Below are positions 3,339-60,733 of a stretch of 64,000 nt of DNA, one piece after another. The first letter of the stretch is position 1, and each line of letters opens with the position of its first letter. Made by a program: the position numbers and the translations under genes. The DNA is from Lachnospiraceae bacterium 28-4. Its GTDB lineage: Bacteria; Bacillota; Clostridia; Lachnospirales; Lachnospiraceae. The notes beneath the pieces were generated by a model. It made no database searches. It was not told the DNA's origin and worked only from the letters and a program-made list of their open reading frames with translations. The DNA lies in NCBI GenBank assembly GCA_000403275.2, contig KE159599.1, positions 186,001-250,000 on the forward strand. The letters are read 5' to 3'.

Positions 3339-5006
3339 TTATTCCTGATGGAATGTAATATTTTTTGTATCCTCCGTATAGTTCTCCATTTGCAGTGTTC
3401 CGCTCTTTCCCTCTAATTCGGGAAGAATATTCTTCAATTTTATGATTTTCTGGTCAATCTCGGAACTGGAACCAAGCGTTACCCTGACCTCTTCAAAAAA
3501 CAAAGTCAGGTTGTAAGAAGAATCAAAAAATATCTTGTCCGCCGTAAGTTCATATTTATTCAACAGCTGGGTAATATCCAGAATCCGTTTGAAAATCTCG
3601 TCGTTCTCCACGGGCAGGGGTTCGTTCACTACCACATAGTCGAACCTGAGGCCCGTAACCTGCGGAATTCCGCGGGTTCTCTCCGAAGAGCTTTCCACCA
3701 CTGTTCCGTCTCTGTCAAAATACATATATCTTCCAAGATATTCCACATACCCCGCCAGCGCTTTTTCATATACGCTGATCCGTATCGTATTCGGCGTGAG
3801 GATATTCACATCCATTTTCTCGACAAAGGGTATGCCCTCCACGCCTTTATCTTTGTATTTCATAGCAAGATAAAGGGAATTCTTCCCATACCTTCCTTTC
3901 ATTACCATATCCATTACTTCTTCATTCGTATAATGGACATTGCCGTCCACATATACCGTCGTCACCTTATAAGCGGTGGTTATGTAATAATAAATACCTG
4001 CCAGAAAGGCGCAGCATGCAAAAATCGTAAAACCGATAATTACCAGGCTTCTATGCTGAACAAACCATTCTCCCAGTTCCGGCTTGTCCCGATAGACATC
4101 CCTGTCTTTTTTCCTGCTGTCCGTTTTCAGGCTTTTTTTCTTTTCTGTTGTCTCTTTTTTCTTCCCCGGTTTTTTCCTCTTTTTCCCTGTTTTCTTTTTT
4201 TCCCCTTCCGGCTTCTCTTTTTCTCCGCCCTCTTTCTTTTCTCCTCCCAACGCCGTTTTTCCGCCGGCCTTTTTCGTTTCCCCTTCCGGCTCCGCTTTCC
4301 CTTGAGCCTTCTTTGCCTCGCTCTCCGGCTCCGCTTTCCCTTTGGCCTTCTTTGCCTCGCTCTCCGGCTCCGCTTTCCCTTTGGCCTTTTTCGCATCGCC
4401 TCCTGGCTCCGCTTTCCCTTTGGTTTTCTTCGCCCCGCCTCCCGGTCTCGCTTTCCCTTGGGCCTTCTTTGCCTCGCCCTCCGGTTCCGCTTTCCCTTGG
4501 GTTTTCTTCGCCCCGTCTCTCGGTTCCGCTTTTCCTTTCGCTCCCTTTATTTTTCCTTCCGGCGCTGCTTTCTCTCCGGTCTCCTTCTTTTCTTCCTCCG
4601 GCGTCTTTTTCTTTCCGCTTCTTCTTACTTTCCCTTCCGCAGATTTCTGCCCTTCCGCCGTTTTTTTCTTCTTTTCCCCGGAAACCCTCTTTCGCTTACG
4701 TGTAGATTTCTTTGTTTCCCCCGTTCCTTTTTTCTCCCCGGCTTTCTTCTCCGGTTTTGCCTCTGCCTTTTCCTGCTGCGCGCCTTTCTTCGCTTCCTCC
4801 GGCTCTTTTCTTCCTTTTTGAACCGCTTTCTTCGTCTCTCCGGCTTCCTTCTCTCCAAAGGAGCCCCTTGCCCCTTTGGATGAATTTTCTTCCTTTACCA
4901 GCTTATCTCCGTTTTTAACCAGTCTTAAATTAGGATTACGCCGCCTGGCGCTCTGTTTTATTTTCTGTCCACTGTTTTGTTTTGTATTTTTCCCGTTACC
5001 GTCCAT
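3339..5006 (-). CDS. ftsQ: Division protein FtsQ/DivIB with a very long repetitive cytoplasmic tail
   Basis: About 555 residues, roughly twice the usual FtsQ/DivIB length. The C-terminal ~235 residues are conventional: one transmembrane helix (LVIIGFTIFACCAFLAGIY), then a POTRA-like segment (VTTVYVDGNVHYTNEEV) and the FtsQ beta domain. The preceding ~320 cytoplasmic residues are almost entirely Lys, Ala, Glu, Gly and Pro and include seven 13-residue tandem repeats. I place the start at the ATG at 5006 (MDGNGKNTKQ), preceded by AAGG. An upstream ATG at 5060 sits in an AT-repeat without a ribosome site. DivIB stabilises the FtsL/DivIC and PBP complex at the septum. The charged tail is likely disordered. 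Confidence 0.85.
   Translation of the reverse strand: MDGNGKNTKQNSGQKIKQSARRRNPNLRLVKNGDKLVKEENSSKGARGSFGEKEAGETKKAVQKGRKEPEEAKKGAQQEKAEAKPEKKAGEKKGTGETKKSTRKRKRVSGEKKKKTAEGQKSAEGKVRRSGKKKTPEEEKKETGEKAAPEGKIKGAKGKAEPRDGAKKTQGKAEPEGEAKKAQGKARPGGGAKKTKGKAEPGGDAKKAKGKAEPESEAKKAKGKAEPESEAKKAQGKAEPEGETKKAGGKTALGGEKKEGGEKEKPEGEKKKTGKKRKKPGKKKETTEKKKSLKTDSRKKDRDVYRDKPELGEWFVQHRSLVIIGFTIFACCAFLAGIYYYITTAYKVTTVYVDGNVHYTNEEVMDMVMKGRYGKNSLYLAMKYKDKGVEGIPFVEKMDVNILTPNTIRISVYEKALAGYVEYLGRYMYFDRDGTVVESSSERTRGIPQVTGLRFDYVVVNEPLPVENDEIFKRILDITQLLNKYELTADKIFFDSSYNLTLFFEEVRVTLGSSSEIDQKIIKLKNILPELEGKSGTLQMENYTEDTKNITFHQE
4257..4529 (-). repeat. 39-bp tandem repeat inside ftsQ (7 units)
   Basis: Seven consecutive 13-codon units of consensus AEPEGEAKKAQGK, imperfect at the DNA and protein level and all in frame. 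Flanking sequence is of similar composition without strict periodicity. The array encodes a polyampholytic stretch of the cytoplasmic tail and could vary in copy number. Confidence 0.85.
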
Positions 5007-18514: not shown

Positions 18515-20173
18515 GATAGCGTAAGTTTATTGTAGGAATAGGATAGACAGAATAGTCCCTTGATCTGGTCAGACTGATTGACCTTCTTTACTATACCTGT
18601 TCTTTTCTCTTCCTACAAGCCCCAGATATGATTCTTTAGCGCCGCGATCTTTCTGATCTGTGTATACGGTATCGTGTAGACAGGCAGCTCTGCCAGCGCT
18701 CCCTGTGCCTTTCGGTTCTTTCGCTCGCTCTTTAATACTTCTTCCGCTGAACAGATCACTTCTTCCATCCCCGCAGCCCTTGGCAGTTCCTGTTTCTGGT
18801 ATCTTACGAGCGTCAGCATATCCCCGCCATTCTTTTTATACACCCTAAGGCGCGCCATCTTATCCGCTCCTGTCTTTGACCACCCAAGGGGTCTTGAACT
18901 CATCCTGTCCGCATAGATGTGGCTGATATGCCCTTCTGCGCTACAATGAATGTCATCCTCTTTGTTCCTCACCCCGTTCATGATCGCAGACCAGTGCCCC
19001 AGGATATAATCCCTGGATGCCCCTACCGCTTTCTGTTTGCTCTCTGTATCTGTGATGCCGATGATCCTCTCAAAGACCTCCGCCGCATCCTTTTTCCTCT
19101 TCCCGTTTATCGCGCCCCATATCTCACTCCGGGCATCCTGCGCACTGTCCCCCAGATGGGAGGTCGCCGCCATGATGTACTTATGCATGTGGTATCTGTC
19201 AAGCACAAACTTCGCCTTGGCATGTACCTTCGCCCCTGTCTTGATCCATTCTGCCCCGTCCCCGTTCACATAGATGCGTTCCAGCACTTCTTCATCATAA
19301 GTCCCTGCTATATAGTCATATACCTCTCTCCATAACCGCTGCGTCCCCTCTGTCCCTTCACAGCCGCCGCCAAAGTATCTTACTCCAACAAGTTCATGTC
19401 TGTCTCCCTCTGCCCGTATGCCTTCGTAGACATACACCAGTTTTGGCATGAAGGTATGTTTCAGGGCGCTTTTTGTATCTCCCTTTTTCTCCAGATACTG
19501 CAATGCCACATGGTCTTCATCCGCATCTATGTAGAGCACCTTTACCTGTCTCTTTTCTTTTGTATCTTCTGCTTTGGGAAACTGTAGGCAGTGCAGCTTC
19601 TCCATCACGGTCTCCTTGCTCACTGCCACACCTGATATGCTGGCATTCATGCCGCCTTTCCTGTAACTGCTGTCCGCCGCCTCTTCGTAGATCCTTGCCA
19701 CGGCATCCTCTGTCATGCGTTCCCCTGATCCTAATCCCATCAGCCTGTCTAACAGGTAGCATCTTTCCCCCGTCTGAGGATTATGAAAGTAAGTCTTTTT
19801 ATAGGTCACTTCACCAAGGGATGTCAGTTTGGACACTTCATCCCTGCGCACCACCCGCCATCCCGGTCTCAGTTCTTTTCTGTCATGGAGTAGGGTATCA
19901 TAGAACTCCCATTCCTCCGCAATCATGGACAGTCCCAATCCAATGACACTGTCCGTCACTCCCTGTACCATCTCCGCAACCTTTGTCATGTCTGATGCAT
20001 AGCTGTTAAAAACTTTTTCTAACTTTTTTACCCCTTCTGCCTGAAACTGTTGTATACTGTTGATCATGGAAGCACCTCTTTCTTTGGATTTTTTCGCCAA
20101 TCAAATCCTAACACAGAAAAAGGTGCTTTCCTATTTCTTTCTATTCTGTTTTCCTACAAAAACTTTACCCTAG
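18515..20173 (-). mobile_element. ISLre2-family insertion sequence, complete (1659 bp)
   Basis: One transposase gene bounded by imperfect inverted ends. The right end read inwards is CTAGGGTAAAGTTTTTGTAGG and the left end is GATAGCGTAAGTTTATTGTAGG, about 20 bp matching with one indel and few mismatches. A 9-10 bp direct repeat (CGCATAAACA) flanks the element, consistent with the 9-bp duplications I recall for this family. It interrupts an open frame that runs into the antitoxin gene. Both ends and the transposase look intact, so it may still be active. Confidence 0.85.
18613..20067 (-). CDS. ISLre2-family (UPF0236) transposase
   Basis: About 484 residues from an ATG at 20067 (MINSIQQFQ) with GAGGTG six bases upstream. 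Central region shows the family pattern: GEVTYKKTYFHNPQTGERCYLL, then a VLYIDADEDHVALQ block with likely catalytic acidic residues, then YVNGDGAEWIKTGA and FVLDRYHMHKY. The C-terminal half carries the conserved CSAEGHISHIYADRMSSRPLGWS. Catalyses transposition of its own element. Confidence 0.9.
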   Translation of the reverse strand: MINSIQQFQAEGVKKLEKVFNSYASDMTKVAEMVQGVTDSVIGLGLSMIAEEWEFYDTLLHDRKELRPGWRVVRRDEVSKLTSLGEVTYKKTYFHNPQTGERCYLLDRLMGLGSGERMTEDAVARIYEEAADSSYRKGGMNASISGVAVSKETVMEKLHCLQFPKAEDTKEKRQVKVLYIDADEDHVALQYLEKKGDTKSALKHTFMPKLVYVYEGIRAEGDRHELVGVRYFGGGCEGTEGTQRLWREVYDYIAGTYDEEVLERIYVNGDGAEWIKTGAKVHAKAKFVLDRYHMHKYIMAATSHLGDSAQDARSEIWGAINGKRKKDAAEVFERIIGITDTESKQKAVGASRDYILGHWSAIMNGVRNKEDDIHCSAEGHISHIYADRMSSRPLGWSKTGADKMARLRVYKKNGGDMLTLVRYQKQELPRAAGMEEVICSAEEVLKSERKNRKAQGALAELPVYTIPYTQIRKIAALKNHIWGL

Positions 20174-35891: not shown

Positions 35892-36157
35892 GGATTGCGG
35901 TTAAAAAGTCCCTGTCCACAGGGGCGGCCTGGCCCGGCCAAAGGGAGCAAAAGGCTTGCGGGGCGCAGGGGCGAAAAGGTTTTGTAAGCACGGCTTAATG
36001 CACGACGGAAAGGAGACTTCCCCAGAAGGCTCCTTGGAGTGTTTCGTGCATCAGAGTGCGCACAAAACCTTTTTCGCCCCCTGCGCCCCGCAAGTCTTCC
36101 GCTCCCTTTGGCCGGGCCAGGACGCCCCTGTGGACAGGGACTTTTTAACCGCAATCC
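35892..36157. repeat. Giant hairpin B just after pfkB (266 bp)
   Basis: Arms of about 94 bases pair almost completely (outer GGATTGCGGTTAAAAAGTCC and its complement; about four mismatches and two single-base gaps over the arm). The centre carries an inner hairpin: ATGCACGA/TCGTGCAT around AAGGAG-CTTC/GAAG-CTCCTT. It begins 16 bases past the pfkB stop. Its sequence is unrelated to hairpins A, C and D. Confidence 0.92.
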
Positions 36158-42915: not shown

Positions 42916-43059
42916 TTATTTCACCTTTTCGCAGCTCTGATTGCCTACGGTACAAGATGTCTTGCAAGCTGACTGGCAAGAAGTCTGGCACTCGCCGCAT
43001 CCGCCCTTTTTCATAGATTCTTTATAGTCTCTTGTGCTTAATGTCTTTATATGTTTCAT
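42916..43059 (-). CDS. scfA: SCIFF six-cysteine ribosomal peptide precursor
   Basis: 47 residues. N-terminal leader MKHIKTLSTRDYKESMKKGG, then six cysteines (21, 24, 28, 32, 36, 43), which is the defining pattern of SCIFF (six cysteines in forty-five residues), the near-universal RiPP precursor of Clostridia. ScfB makes thioether bonds between cysteines and acceptor residues. AGGAGG sits seven bases before the ATG. It lies between the TIGR04086 gene and scfB. Biological role of the mature peptide is unsettled. Confidence 0.96.
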   Translation of the reverse strand: MKHIKTLSTRDYKESMKKGGCGECQTSCQSACKTSCTVGNQSCEKVK

Positions 43060-43104
43060 CACAAAGCCTCCTAATATTTTATGAACTTTCTACACATTTA
43101 CTGT

Positions 43105-43113: not shown

Positions 43114-43152
43114 TAGATTCTCCGCAAGGAAAAGGATTTTTTTGATAAAATC

Positions 43153-43583
43153 ACGGAAATCCATTTTGAAGGTCCAGGGCATGGCAGGGAGGGTGCAGAC
43201 AGCAGGGGAAAGGGCGGGCGGAGACGGGACGGGGAAAGACAGACAGAGGCGGGACGGAACAGGCGGTGCATGGATTTCCGCTGCTTTACGCAGGGAAATA
43301 AGATTTTCTTAATATTCCGTTCTGCAAACAGCAATTTGGGGACATGGATGTCACCAAAAGCCAGCGATGAGCCAGGATGGCGAATAGCTGGCGGTTGCGT
43401 CCGGCTGCTATTGTTTTCCCGGAATATTTAGAAAATCCATTTCCCGAAGCCGGCACGGAAATCCATGCACCGCCTGTTCCGTCCCGCCTCTGTCTGTCTT
43501 TCCCCGTCCCGTCTCCGCCCGCCCTTTCCCCTGCTGTCTGCACCCTCCCTGCCATGCCCTGGACCTTCAAAATGGATTTCCGT
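43153..43583. repeat. Giant hairpin C1 (431 bp), family C
   Basis: Arms 43154-43280 and 43456-43582 are 127-bp perfect inverted repeats. Each arm starts CGGAAATCCAT and ends ATGGATTTCCG. The 175-bp core pairs further (GGGAAAT..GATTTTCT.AATATTCCG with its complement) and holds two small hairpins (GACA/TGTC; GCCAGC/GCTGGC). The core is about 85 percent identical by eye to that of C2 at 60449-60622, but the arms differ. Flanked by TTTGATAAAATC (43141) and TTTGGTAAAATC (43583), a probable target duplication. Lies between the TIGR04086 gene and scfA. Confidence 0.93.
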
Positions 43584-43646
43584 TTGGTAAAATCCTCCTA
43601 AAATGCAAAAGAGCGCAACCCGCAAGCCACGCCCTTTCCAAATATC

Positions 43647-44069
43647 TCAATGCGCCAGCATCCCGCCCAGCATCCCGCTTCCCGCGCAAAGACAGAACAC
43701 CGTTACAAAATTGGTCGCCACATCCGCTATGCTCCTGTTTACCGCCAAAGATACGAGAGCCAGAACCGCGAAGTAAAGCGTCCCCATGCAAAGCCCCCAT
43801 AAAAATTTCCTGCTTCCGGCGCGTTTTCCTGCCAACAGCCCCGCCAGAAAGGTAACCGCTATGTAAATCACAATAATTCCGATATTCACAATTTTTTCCT
43901 GCAAGCTGAAACGATACAGCAAAAGAGCCAGCAAAAGCAACAGCCCTGCGGTCAGCACATAGGAAAAAAGCAGACATTTCATTATAAAAAGGATTCCCTC
44001 CCCGCTCAGCATATTGCCCATTTGGGGTTCTCCTTTATTTTTCGATCGCATCCTCCCCATTCTTTCCAT
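43647..44069 (-). CDS. TIGR04086-family membrane protein
   Basis: About 140 residues with four hydrophobic helices (ILFIMKCLLFSYVLTAGLLL, IVNIGIIVIYIAVTFLAGLL, FLWGLCMGTLYFAVLALVSL and VTVFCLCAGSGMLGGML). Pattern and position fit TIGR04086, a Clostridia membrane family found beside the SCIFF genes and secDF. Function unknown; a link to SCIFF export or signalling is guesswork. ATG at 44069 has AAGGAG seven bases upstream. Confidence 0.75.
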   Translation of the reverse strand: MERMGRMRSKNKGEPQMGNMLSGEGILFIMKCLLFSYVLTAGLLLLLALLLYRFSLQEKIVNIGIIVIYIAVTFLAGLLAGKRAGSRKFLWGLCMGTLYFAVLALVSLAVNRSIADVATNFVTVFCLCAGSGMLGGMLAH

Positions 44070-44149
44070 AATCAATCTCCTTCCGCTATTTCTATCTTTT
44101 TAATATATATTCCCCTTCTTCCCGTAAATTGCCTGAATCATGAAATATC

Positions 44150-47876: not shown

Positions 47877-47891
47877 CAAATATCCGGGACA

Positions 47892-48234
47892 CGGAAAACA
47901 ATTTTTATAAGCGCCATGGGAAGGAAGGCGAAGGGGACAAGGGCGGCTGCGTCAAGGGCGGGCGGGGGCCGGTTTTCTGCCGTTGCGTACAATCAGTAAT
48001 TTCACTTATGAAATGGTCGAAATAGTAGGGAAAAACCGCATGGAGGCAGTTTTAGGGAGCCCAGGACAGGATGTCCGTGGCTCCCGGCCCGGCCTCTTCC
48101 GTAATCTTGATCCATTTCATTAGTGAAATCTGATTGGAAGCTTCGGCAGAAAACCGGCCCCCGCCCGCCCTTGACGCAGCCGCCCCTGTCCCCTTCGCCT
48201 TCCTTCCCATGGCGCTTATAAAAATTGTTTTCCG
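47892..48234. repeat. Giant hairpin D1 (343 bp), family D
   Basis: Arms 47892-47982 and 48144-48234 are 91-bp inverted repeats with one mismatch. Outer ends read CGGAAAACAATTTTTATAAG, then GCGCCATGG. The core pairs CAATCAG-ATTTCACT-ATGAAATGG with its near complement and carries an apical stem GGGAGCC/GGCTCCC with inner GGACA/TGTCC. The core and outermost ~28 bp match D2 (54662-55020) in reverse orientation; the arm interiors do not. Lies downstream of the DUF6033-like gene. Confidence 0.93.
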
Positions 48235-48320
48235 TTCACCAACTATATTCTCCATTGAAAAAAACGGGAAAGGATGATAAAATAAATGAAAATAAATCGT
48301 TGGCACTAAGGACAAACATC

Positions 48321-54580: not shown

Positions 54581-54661
54581 ATGAATAACCGTATCCTTTC
54601 CGCAATTAATTTGCAAACTTTCACTTATGAAACGATTTTACACCGTTTGACAAGGTTTTTC

Positions 54662-55020
54662 AACCACGGAAATCAATTTTTATAAGCGCCATGGCGGAGG
54701 GAGGCCAAACGGGCCGGAACAGCTGGGAAAAGGGGCTGGCAGGACTGCGGTTTTCTGCTGGAGCTTCCAATCAGATTTTACTAATGAAATGGATATATAA
54801 TATCCAACCGGACGAGCCGGCAGCAACGGCATCCATGCCTATGCTTCCTGAAGCCGCCATCCCTGGCGGCTTCGCTCTGACTATTGACCATTTCATAAGT
54901 AAAATGACTGATTGTACGCAACAGCAGAAAACCGCAGTCCTGCCAGCCCCTTTTCCCAGCTGTTCCGGCCCGTTTGGCCTCCCTCCGCCATGGCGCTTAT
55001 AAAAATTGATTTCCGTGGTT
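54662..55020. repeat. Giant hairpin D2 (359 bp), family D
   Basis: Arms 54662-54760 and 54922-55020 are 99-bp perfect inverted repeats. The outer ends share CGGAAATCAATTTTTATAAG and GCGCCATGG with D1; arm interiors are unrelated to D1. The core is D1-like but in reverse orientation: CCAATCAGATTTTACTAATG on the left and its partner on the right, with an apical stem GAAGCCGCC/GGCGGCTTC that replaces the different apical stem of D1. Direct repeat TTTTCAAC at 54657-54664 and 55019-55026 flanks it. Lies between hisS and the nuclease gene. Confidence 0.94.
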
Positions 55021-55095
55021 TTCAACTCCTTCATCTATCTTTTTCCATCCCGTTTTGATATAATATTTTATCATACACTATTACGAGGTAAATCA

Positions 55096-60324: not shown

Positions 60325-60398
60325 ACATATACCGCCAGCAACAAGCAGAAATCAATTTTAGCAGGATAGGACACAGCAAAGCTTGGCAGGAAAGAAGA

Positions 60399-60672
60399 AA
60401 GGCGGCAGGAGAACGGCGGGACGGAGTAGGCGGAAAATGGTTTTACCGCTGCTTTGCGCAGGGAAATGAGATTTTCTTAATATTCCGTATATAAACAGCA
60501 ATTTGGTGACACGGATGTCACCAAAAGCCAGCTATGAGCCCGGACGGCGAATTGCTGGCGGTTGCGTCCGGCCGACACCGCCTGGCCGGAATATTTAGAA
60601 AATCCATTTCCCGCAGCCAGCACGGAAAACCATTTTCCGCCTGCCCCGTCCCGCCGTTCTCCTGCCGCCTTT
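60399..60672. repeat. Large hairpin C2 (274 bp), family C
   Basis: Arms 60399-60448 and 60623-60672 pair over 50 bp with three mismatches; complementarity fades outside, so the outer part is shorter or decayed compared with C1. The core (60449-60622) closely matches the C1 core: GGGAAAT-AGATTTTCTTAAT, AACAGCAATTTGG, ATGTCACCAAAAGCCAGC and GCTGGCGGTTGCGTCCGGC are shared. In C2, AGCAATT/AATTGCT and CCGGACG/CGTCCGG also pair. It lies between the divergent promoters of hemZ and the MATE gene. Confidence 0.88.
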
Positions 60673-60733
60673 CCTCCCTCATTCTATCTTTCTCATTCCA
60701 TCCTTCCAAAACCCCTTTCCACAATAGTAACAT

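Follow-up and report, generated by a model that had tools for sequence, protein, structure and literature searches.

A perfect hairpin beside scfA in a Lachnospiraceae genome is best read as a copy of a mobile element with the TwoAYGGAY 'RNA' at its heart

What is a perfectly complementary hairpin of 431 nt doing between the gene of the SCIFF peptide (scfA) and a DUF3792 gene, and what keeps its two arms identical? The structure, called C1 here, lies in a window of 64,000 nt from Lachnospiraceae bacterium 28-4. Both neighbors are as the first-pass annotation had claimed (DUF3792 is presumably the same family as TIGR04086, the name used there), and its argument that the perfection of C1 calls for an explanation holds. 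An inverted-repeat search confirmed that the repeat at 43153-43583 is real and perfectly complementary; its arms measure 128 nt, not the 127 bp given before, and are separated by 175 nt. The left arm carries CGGAAATCCAT at its outer and ATGGATTTCCG at its inner end, the two bounding sequences that had been noticed earlier. Folded as single-stranded DNA, the 431 nt of C1 reach -232.8 kcal/mol (z = -40), and 0 of 100 dinucleotide shuffles folded as well. The open reading frames that overlap C1 would encode at most 94 amino acids.

Table 1 Coordinates of C1, of its neighbors and of the related hairpins in the window
Feature	Position	Strand	Basis or remark
C1 element, MITE-like hairpin, CACGG to CCGTT	43152..43584	+	inverted-repeat and end analysis
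C1 left arm, purine-rich	43153..43280	+	128 nt, 100% complementary to right arm
C1 right arm, pyrimidine-rich	43456..43583	+	inverted-repeat search
C1 core, RF01731 TwoAYGGAY, C type	43286..43452	+	116.4 bits, gathering score 43
C1 left target-site duplication TGATAAAAT	43143..43151	.	8/9 identical to right copy
C1 right target-site duplication TGGTAAAAT	43585..43593	.	8/9 identical to left copy
SCIFF (scfA) gene, neighbor outside C1 element	42916..43062	-	PF13165
DUF3792 gene, neighbor outside C1 element	43647..44075	-	PF12670
47.9-kb B-type element	47891..48235	+	arms 47891-47996 and 48130-48235; core 47983-48143
54.7-kb B-type element	54665..55017	-	arms 99/99 complementary
54.7-kb core, RF01731, B type	54761..54921	-	94.9 bits
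54.7-kb target duplications	54656-54664; 55018-55026		TTTTTCAAC; GTTTTCAAC
C2 left arm	60394..60444	+	94% complementary; decayed outer end CAGAAATCAATTTT farther left near 60346-60359
C2 core, RF01731, C type	60454..60619	+	116.4 bits
C2 right arm	60626..60676	+	inverted-repeat search

The core of C1 matches the Rfam family RF01731 (TwoAYGGAY) over the whole model (positions 1-168); Rfam models only this core and calls it a cis-regulatory RNA. We counted as members all cores with a covariance-model score above the gathering score of 43, a threshold passed by four cores in the window (116.4, 116.4, 94.9 and 72.3 bits), the last of which, at 47.9 kb, was missed by the default-filter scan and found with laxer filters. 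The hairpins at 47.9 and 54.7 kb thus belong to the same family as C1 and C2, and the four are split between two subtypes, C with cores of ~167 nt and B with cores of ~160 nt. The cores of C1 and C2, described before as near-identical, are of the same kind but only similar (86% over 163 nt, 93% over 46 nt), and the arms of C2 (51 nt at 94%) do differ from those of C1 in sequence. The window also contains a long inverted repeat at 35892-36157 (114-nt arms, 82%, 38 nt apart), with no RF01731 match at gathering level, and a tandem array with a 39-bp period at 4153-4542.

In the genome of this window (G000; 4.28 Mb, 7 contigs), 62 cores scored above the cut-off, compared to none in 14 control genomes. 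Together with the 47.9-kb copy and five hairpins located through their end sequences, the total is 68. Seven extra hairpins were found by their ends, and five of them reach the Rfam cut-off; L091 and L097, which possess the ends and the hairpin, gave no RF01731 match at E 0.001. Three further places resemble the 54.7-kb element (C1:594543, C2:505783 and C3:366666, as contig:position). With five likely copies added to the 68, we put the copy number at about 70. Within the genus, matches were present in 12 of 16 genomes, G000 included (3 to more than 50 each), and absent in four; G000 itself appears there with 58 copies, since this comparison scored fewer candidates than the 62-copy count did. 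The sister species G009 has 53 matches; we worked with 49 of them, after removing four incomplete matches located at the ends of contigs or close to them. Farther away, 39 of 250 genomes in a family sample had matches (37 above the cut-off), as did 51 of 398 in a phylum sample (34 above it); with 10 and 6 candidates scored per genome, respectively, the copy numbers in these samples are lower bounds. The C1 core, the sole query used for this purpose, had no plasmid or phage match at blastn sensitivity.

The copies have common ends. Intact ones start with CACGGAAATC and finish with GATTTCCGTG, and a search for the 16-mer CACGGAAATCAATTTT that tolerated at most two mismatches gave 93 matches in the genome versus 2 for the reversed control pattern, so that terminal inverted repeats, a mark of MITEs, are shared among the copies. 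Immediately outside these ends is a direct repeat: at 9 bases and zero offset, the identity was 0.461, compared to 0.249 with shuffled partners. The length of the duplication is not sharply fixed, since 7-10 bases with compensating offsets score equally, and we settled on 9 bp, as agreement in the best copies extends over 8 or 9 bases. The two flanking 9-mers shared at least seven bases in 11 of 54 copies, where 0.23 would be expected, and a clear target duplication is retained in only these 11, in a set that includes copies whose ends were misplaced inside an arm. Empty sites were found as well. The 54.7-kb site reads GGTTTTTCAACTC in G009, without an element; among eight loci, it was element-free in G009 and in five others, where the sequence continues uninterrupted through this word or one closely similar, and the pattern used missed the place in the remaining two. 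Shared ends, target duplications and the empty site in G009 together argue for a MITE-like mobile element, as does the lack of space for one at the C1 site in 11 of 15 relatives. Judged from its sequence, C1 appears to be a non-autonomous element of this type with an RF01731 core, present in about 70 copies throughout the genome.

The possibility that C1 derives from a known insertion sequence had been raised earlier; the look of a transposon derivative was confirmed, but the parent element was not found. Neither an autonomous partner nor a transposase flanked by such ends turned up among the G000 end pairs, the ISLre2-type and the IS256-type elements. The end matches listed for G000 include no pair 0.8-4 kb apart, and the extracted loci contain five end pairs that are wider apart. 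An ISLre2-type transposase gene (PF06782) is located in the window at 18790-19989 on the minus strand; its element (~1660 bp, three identical copies in the genome) was rejected as the parent since its ends, GCTAGGGTAAAG, differ. An IS256-type parent was rejected because such ends are absent at two full-length IS256-type genes. Single-strand transposition of the IS200/IS605 type is not known to leave a target-site duplication, and it was rejected because the TwoAYGGAY elements have duplications.

Several other forms and arrangements were observed. Very short elements of ~50-86 bp with little beyond the two ends exist at L099 and at places in G004 and G005; L099 (G000:C3:679136-679185) measures 50 bp, has the two ends and is flanked by a duplication of its own (8/9 bases). 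Close pairs, with cores 140-301 bp apart, are frequent (G000, G009, G013, G023, G052, G101, G181 and G223). By eye, 14 of 15 pairs were oriented (-,+), pointing apart, and one (+,+) (p = 4e-8 against one in four), in pair lists that are incomplete for most genomes. End-like remnants adjoin 22 of 211 element sides versus 5 of 207 windows farther out, and some of these remnants come from the element itself, as outer ends that have decayed, or belong to its close-pair partner.

The conserved core, the varying arms and the recurrence pointed out in the first-pass annotation were all confirmed, and the comparison of arms within and between copies gave our main result. Of the 63 copies in G000, 60 have long arms on either side of the core, as do 44 of 49 in G009, where the flank of four copies was too short to judge. 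These arms are 51-154 bp long and on average ~94% self-complementary within a copy; they are perfect in 10 of 60 copies in G000 and in 1 of 44 in G009. Between the copies of G000, however, the arms agree at only 53% (C type, 21 copies) and 55% (B type, 40 copies) of positions, close to the 48% (C) and 47% (B) of shuffled arms, whereas the cores are 87% (C) and 80% (B) alike. One pair of closely related copies shows this most clearly. The arms are 93/93 complementary in L023 and 99/99 in L024, and between the two copies there are 9 substitutions as well as 8 gap bases, 5 of the latter at the end of the arm; all 9 substitutions and 3 gap bases are mirrored in both arms. Likeness within a copy combined with mirrored changes between copies is the pattern looked for in template switching. 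Arms that match themselves and differ from copy to copy suggest repeated copying from arm to arm at the DNA level.

The arms also have a kept composition. Without the ends, the 3' arm has a median of 76% pyrimidine and is above half in 60 of 61 copies in G000 and 43 of 44 in G009; over both genomes, 103 of 105 copies have a C/T-rich 3' arm, with 48-51% C and 8% A, although its sequence is unconserved. Since the arms are palindromic, this pyrimidine/purine polarity is present on both DNA strands. The G+C content of the 3' arms without ends is 67% in G000, unlike the AT-richness described as typical of MITEs in the available text of PMC10969869. A composition kept so strongly is not predicted by plain neutral copying and counts against copying from arm to arm.

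We also compared sites occupied in both species. Masking the elements and matching the flanks among element-bearing loci, with sites empty in G009 uncounted, yielded 11 sites that are occupied in G000 and G009 alike. Their flanks are 82-94% alike. Nine were scored; L044/L175 aligned partly, and L097/L153, read by eye, has a B-type element in one species and a C-type element in the other at the same base. At L052, L055 and L057, the cores are about as close to the counterpart as to the best paralogue, and in a tree the cores of L052 and L057 adjoin their counterparts, whereas that of L055 does not. The arms at these three sites are 65%, 65% and 50% alike between the species, respectively (random arms average 57, 54 and 48%), but 94-100% self-complementary within each species. 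L055/L115 is also the one site of the nine compared where the core is inverted; as the cores do not group in the tree, this may be an inversion or a reinsertion and is weak evidence for template switching. At the other six of the nine sites, C1 among them, the cores are nearer to paralogues in their own genome than to the counterpart, showing that replacement or reinsertion also occurs. The counterpart of C1 in G009 is a B-type element with quite different arms; its left boundary agrees with that of C1 within ~2 bases by eye, and the right side is unaligned. With cores exchanged at shared places, we conclude that sites persist while their contents change. At L022/L121 (G009:C93), a newer element seems to be inserted within the terminal sequence of an older element and to be flanked on each side by CAGGGAAA, which hints at one possible route for such an exchange.

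Taking these results together, we consider it probable that C1 is a MITE-like element whose copies are kept self-complementary by arm-to-arm copying of DNA and whose position beside scfA is incidental. For the pairing of the arms, DNA-level copying such as template switching is the most likely cause, as judged from the high arm identity within copies, the low identity between them, the mirrored changes and the lack of any G-U preference in the arms (see below). The body of the element is the TwoAYGGAY core, which forms a fork carrying two hairpins with AYGGAY loops, and a long arm on either side of it; a putative enzyme acting in trans would recognize the ends and move the element. After insertion, the arms would change rapidly, in part as purine-rich or pyrimidine-rich stretches are gained and lost, and one arm would repeatedly be copied onto the other during replication, either by template switching of the polymerase or by conversion between the arms. 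Such copying would keep each copy self-complementary while the arms of different copies grow unrelated, and may sometimes flip the core. The arms could lengthen if C/T-rich sequence slips and the change is then copied across to the other arm, which would explain why they are long and polarized. A wider proposal, which we put forward tentatively and hold to be possible rather than probable, is that this is a class of elements conserving complementarity itself: the core would act as DNA, and the arms would be free in sequence, fixed in pairing and polarity, lengthened stepwise within one genus and re-copied from arm to arm, with new copies preferring the places of older ones and sites persisting while contents are exchanged.

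The chief rival is that the arms are made anew at each insertion, by fold-back synthesis from one strand, so that every copy starts perfect and then decays, and differences between copies are errors made in each cycle. Consistent with this, copies range from the perfect ones counted above to those with decayed arms, the mismatches are symmetric as expected for decay, and the six sites with exchanged cores may hold reinsertions. But at L052 and L057 the cores look vertically inherited, and their arms have diverged far more than the flanks (87-89% alike) while remaining self-complementary. This calls for copying after insertion, at two sites, or three if L055 is included. We therefore regard regeneration as unlikely to be the explanation on its own, but it may act alongside copying.

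A second alternative is that C1 and its relatives are transcribed as long double-stranded RNA or as a small RNA, for example a CsrA sponge, and that selection keeps the arms paired through compensatory mutation. Rfam files RF01731 as RNA; passages of Weinberg et al. 2010 (PMC2864571) rate TwoAYGGAY as 'probably' RNA and 'probably not' cis-regulatory, and CsrA binding is proposed in a passage of PMC4333381. Selection on a transcript should lead to more G-U than A-C mismatches. Over all arms, however, we counted 107 G-U, 108 A-C and 60 other mismatches. Equal numbers are predicted for symmetric decay after a DNA-level copying event, and we conclude that the pairing of the arms is not kept by RNA selection. 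The occurrence of 0 to 62 copies within one genus would also be odd for a host RNA.

The cores gave a less uniform picture. With the Rfam structure, the G000 cores of the B type had 34 G-U versus 16 A-C mismatches and those of the C type 10 versus 22, and 14 of these 22 fall at a single column pair in which Watson-Crick pairing never occurs. When the structure was instead derived from the two genomes together, B-type cores had 36 G-U versus 15 A-C on the annotated strand (p = 0.005, relatedness ignored) and 13 versus 24 on the opposite strand; C-type cores, with 30 versus 19 and 37 versus 27, respectively, had no clear strand preference. G-U makes up only ~1.4% of the core pairs, whereas 19 of 42 B-type pairs occur in at least two Watson-Crick forms, which speaks against transcript selection. 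A SAM riboswitch control (n = 13) was too conserved for comparison, with 3 G-U cells, 1 A-C cell and not one pair that occurs in two Watson-Crick forms. The extracted loci contain 13 tRNA genes. The B-type cores thus seem to lean towards RNA and the C-type cores not clearly so, in counts that ignore relatedness. Because of the B-type G-U excess, we leave room for an RNA role of the core and deny it only as the keeper of arm pairing; selection on a transcript as the cause of the hairpin we regard as improbable.

It had also been suggested that C1 insulates the SCIFF unit, and its place between scfA and the neighboring gene, together with a statement in PMC10969869 that MITE transcripts may act as terminators, would fit an insulator or terminator. 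This was not confirmed. Only 10-85 bases separate the conserved flanks of the C1 site in 11 of 15 relatives, which leaves no room for an element; elsewhere, G013 has ~410 bases there, G012 gave no match and G009 has an element. In G003, ~245 bases with a different, shorter inverted repeat occupy the place. Among the 57 copies that could be scored out of 63 (mechanical open reading frames), 6 lie between convergent, 20 between divergent and 31 between tandem genes, so convergent pairs are not enriched, and the roughly 70 copies are dispersed. We conclude that the position of C1 beside scfA is incidental, and a function as SCIFF insulator is very improbable. That the hairpin is an assembly artefact, a suspicion nourished by several G009 copies at contig ends, where hairpins trouble assemblers, is scarcely credible given the target duplications, the empty site and the independent G009 assembly, which has the same architecture, with a different near-perfect hairpin at the place of C1 and long arms in most copies.

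To see how far the long arms extend, we surveyed the 23 best-matching copies of other members of the genus. There were 25-33 arm identities in G001, G002, G008 and G011 (51 in one G002 copy), 38-42 in G013, 32-66 in G004, 33-57 in G005, 56-63 in G012 and G014, and 74 in G003, to be compared with the arm lengths given above for G000 and G009. An exact C-type 20-mer was present in at least 107 copies in other genomes among the matches listed (redundant extracts dropped, 8 copies without flank skipped), 27 of them with at least 40 arm identities; the named genomes among these matches are mostly Lachnospiraceae MAGs. In the part that was sorted by assembly, again among the matches listed, seven of eight G009 copies had 88-105 arm identities, and the 69 copies from elsewhere had 40-63 (13 copies), 19-39 (51 copies) or none (5 copies). 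In 20 copies from distant families, the arms were absent, short or partial. Since arms outside the genus are usually short, partial or absent, we limit the claim of long arms to this genus.

Several known systems resemble these elements in part. Bacterial MITEs such as QMITE2 of Coxiella, in the account available from PMC10969869, are likewise small and dispersed, with terminal inverted repeats, direct repeats of 7-9 bp, a core and a strong hairpin; but QMITE2 has conserved repeats of 23-29 bp, whereas the TwoAYGGAY elements have GC-rich arms that vary by copy and no parent that we could find. According to passages in PMC8604942, template switching homogenizes the arms of inverted repeats and can invert spacers, and in PMC8794818 it is proposed to create and maintain the stems of RNA genes. 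Common to these repeats and ours are arms that are alike and changes on both arms; for an inversion of the spacer, there is one uncertain candidate here. PMC8604942 treats short repeats with arms of 10-16 bp and spacers of up to 70, and mentions the homogenization of long ones as known, in the text available; our arms are several times longer, in dozens of loci in one genome, and the spacer of ~160-175 nt counts against the template-switch reading. In the open-licence literature, as far as accessible, we found no description of TwoAYGGAY as mobile, and the passages that name it (PMC2864571 and PMC4333381 among them) do not mention long arms, ends, target duplications or mobility.

REP/BIME sequences and integron attC sites are dispersed or recombining imperfect palindromes, and attC keeps its structure while its sequence varies; the TwoAYGGAY elements differ from both in bearing target duplications.

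To summarize, the hairpin is best interpreted as one copy of a mobile element built around an Rfam 'RNA'. This gives the orphan family RF01731 a concrete identity as the core of a mobile element and calls its label as a cis-regulatory RNA into question. The approximately 70 copies are natural replicates in one genome, with a sister species at hand, for measuring the copying of DNA from arm to arm. That compensatory changes can arise via template switching has already been argued for RNA genes in a passage of PMC8794818. Should the stems covary through copying rather than selection, then a pattern normally taken to mark a functional RNA can appear where no RNA function exists.
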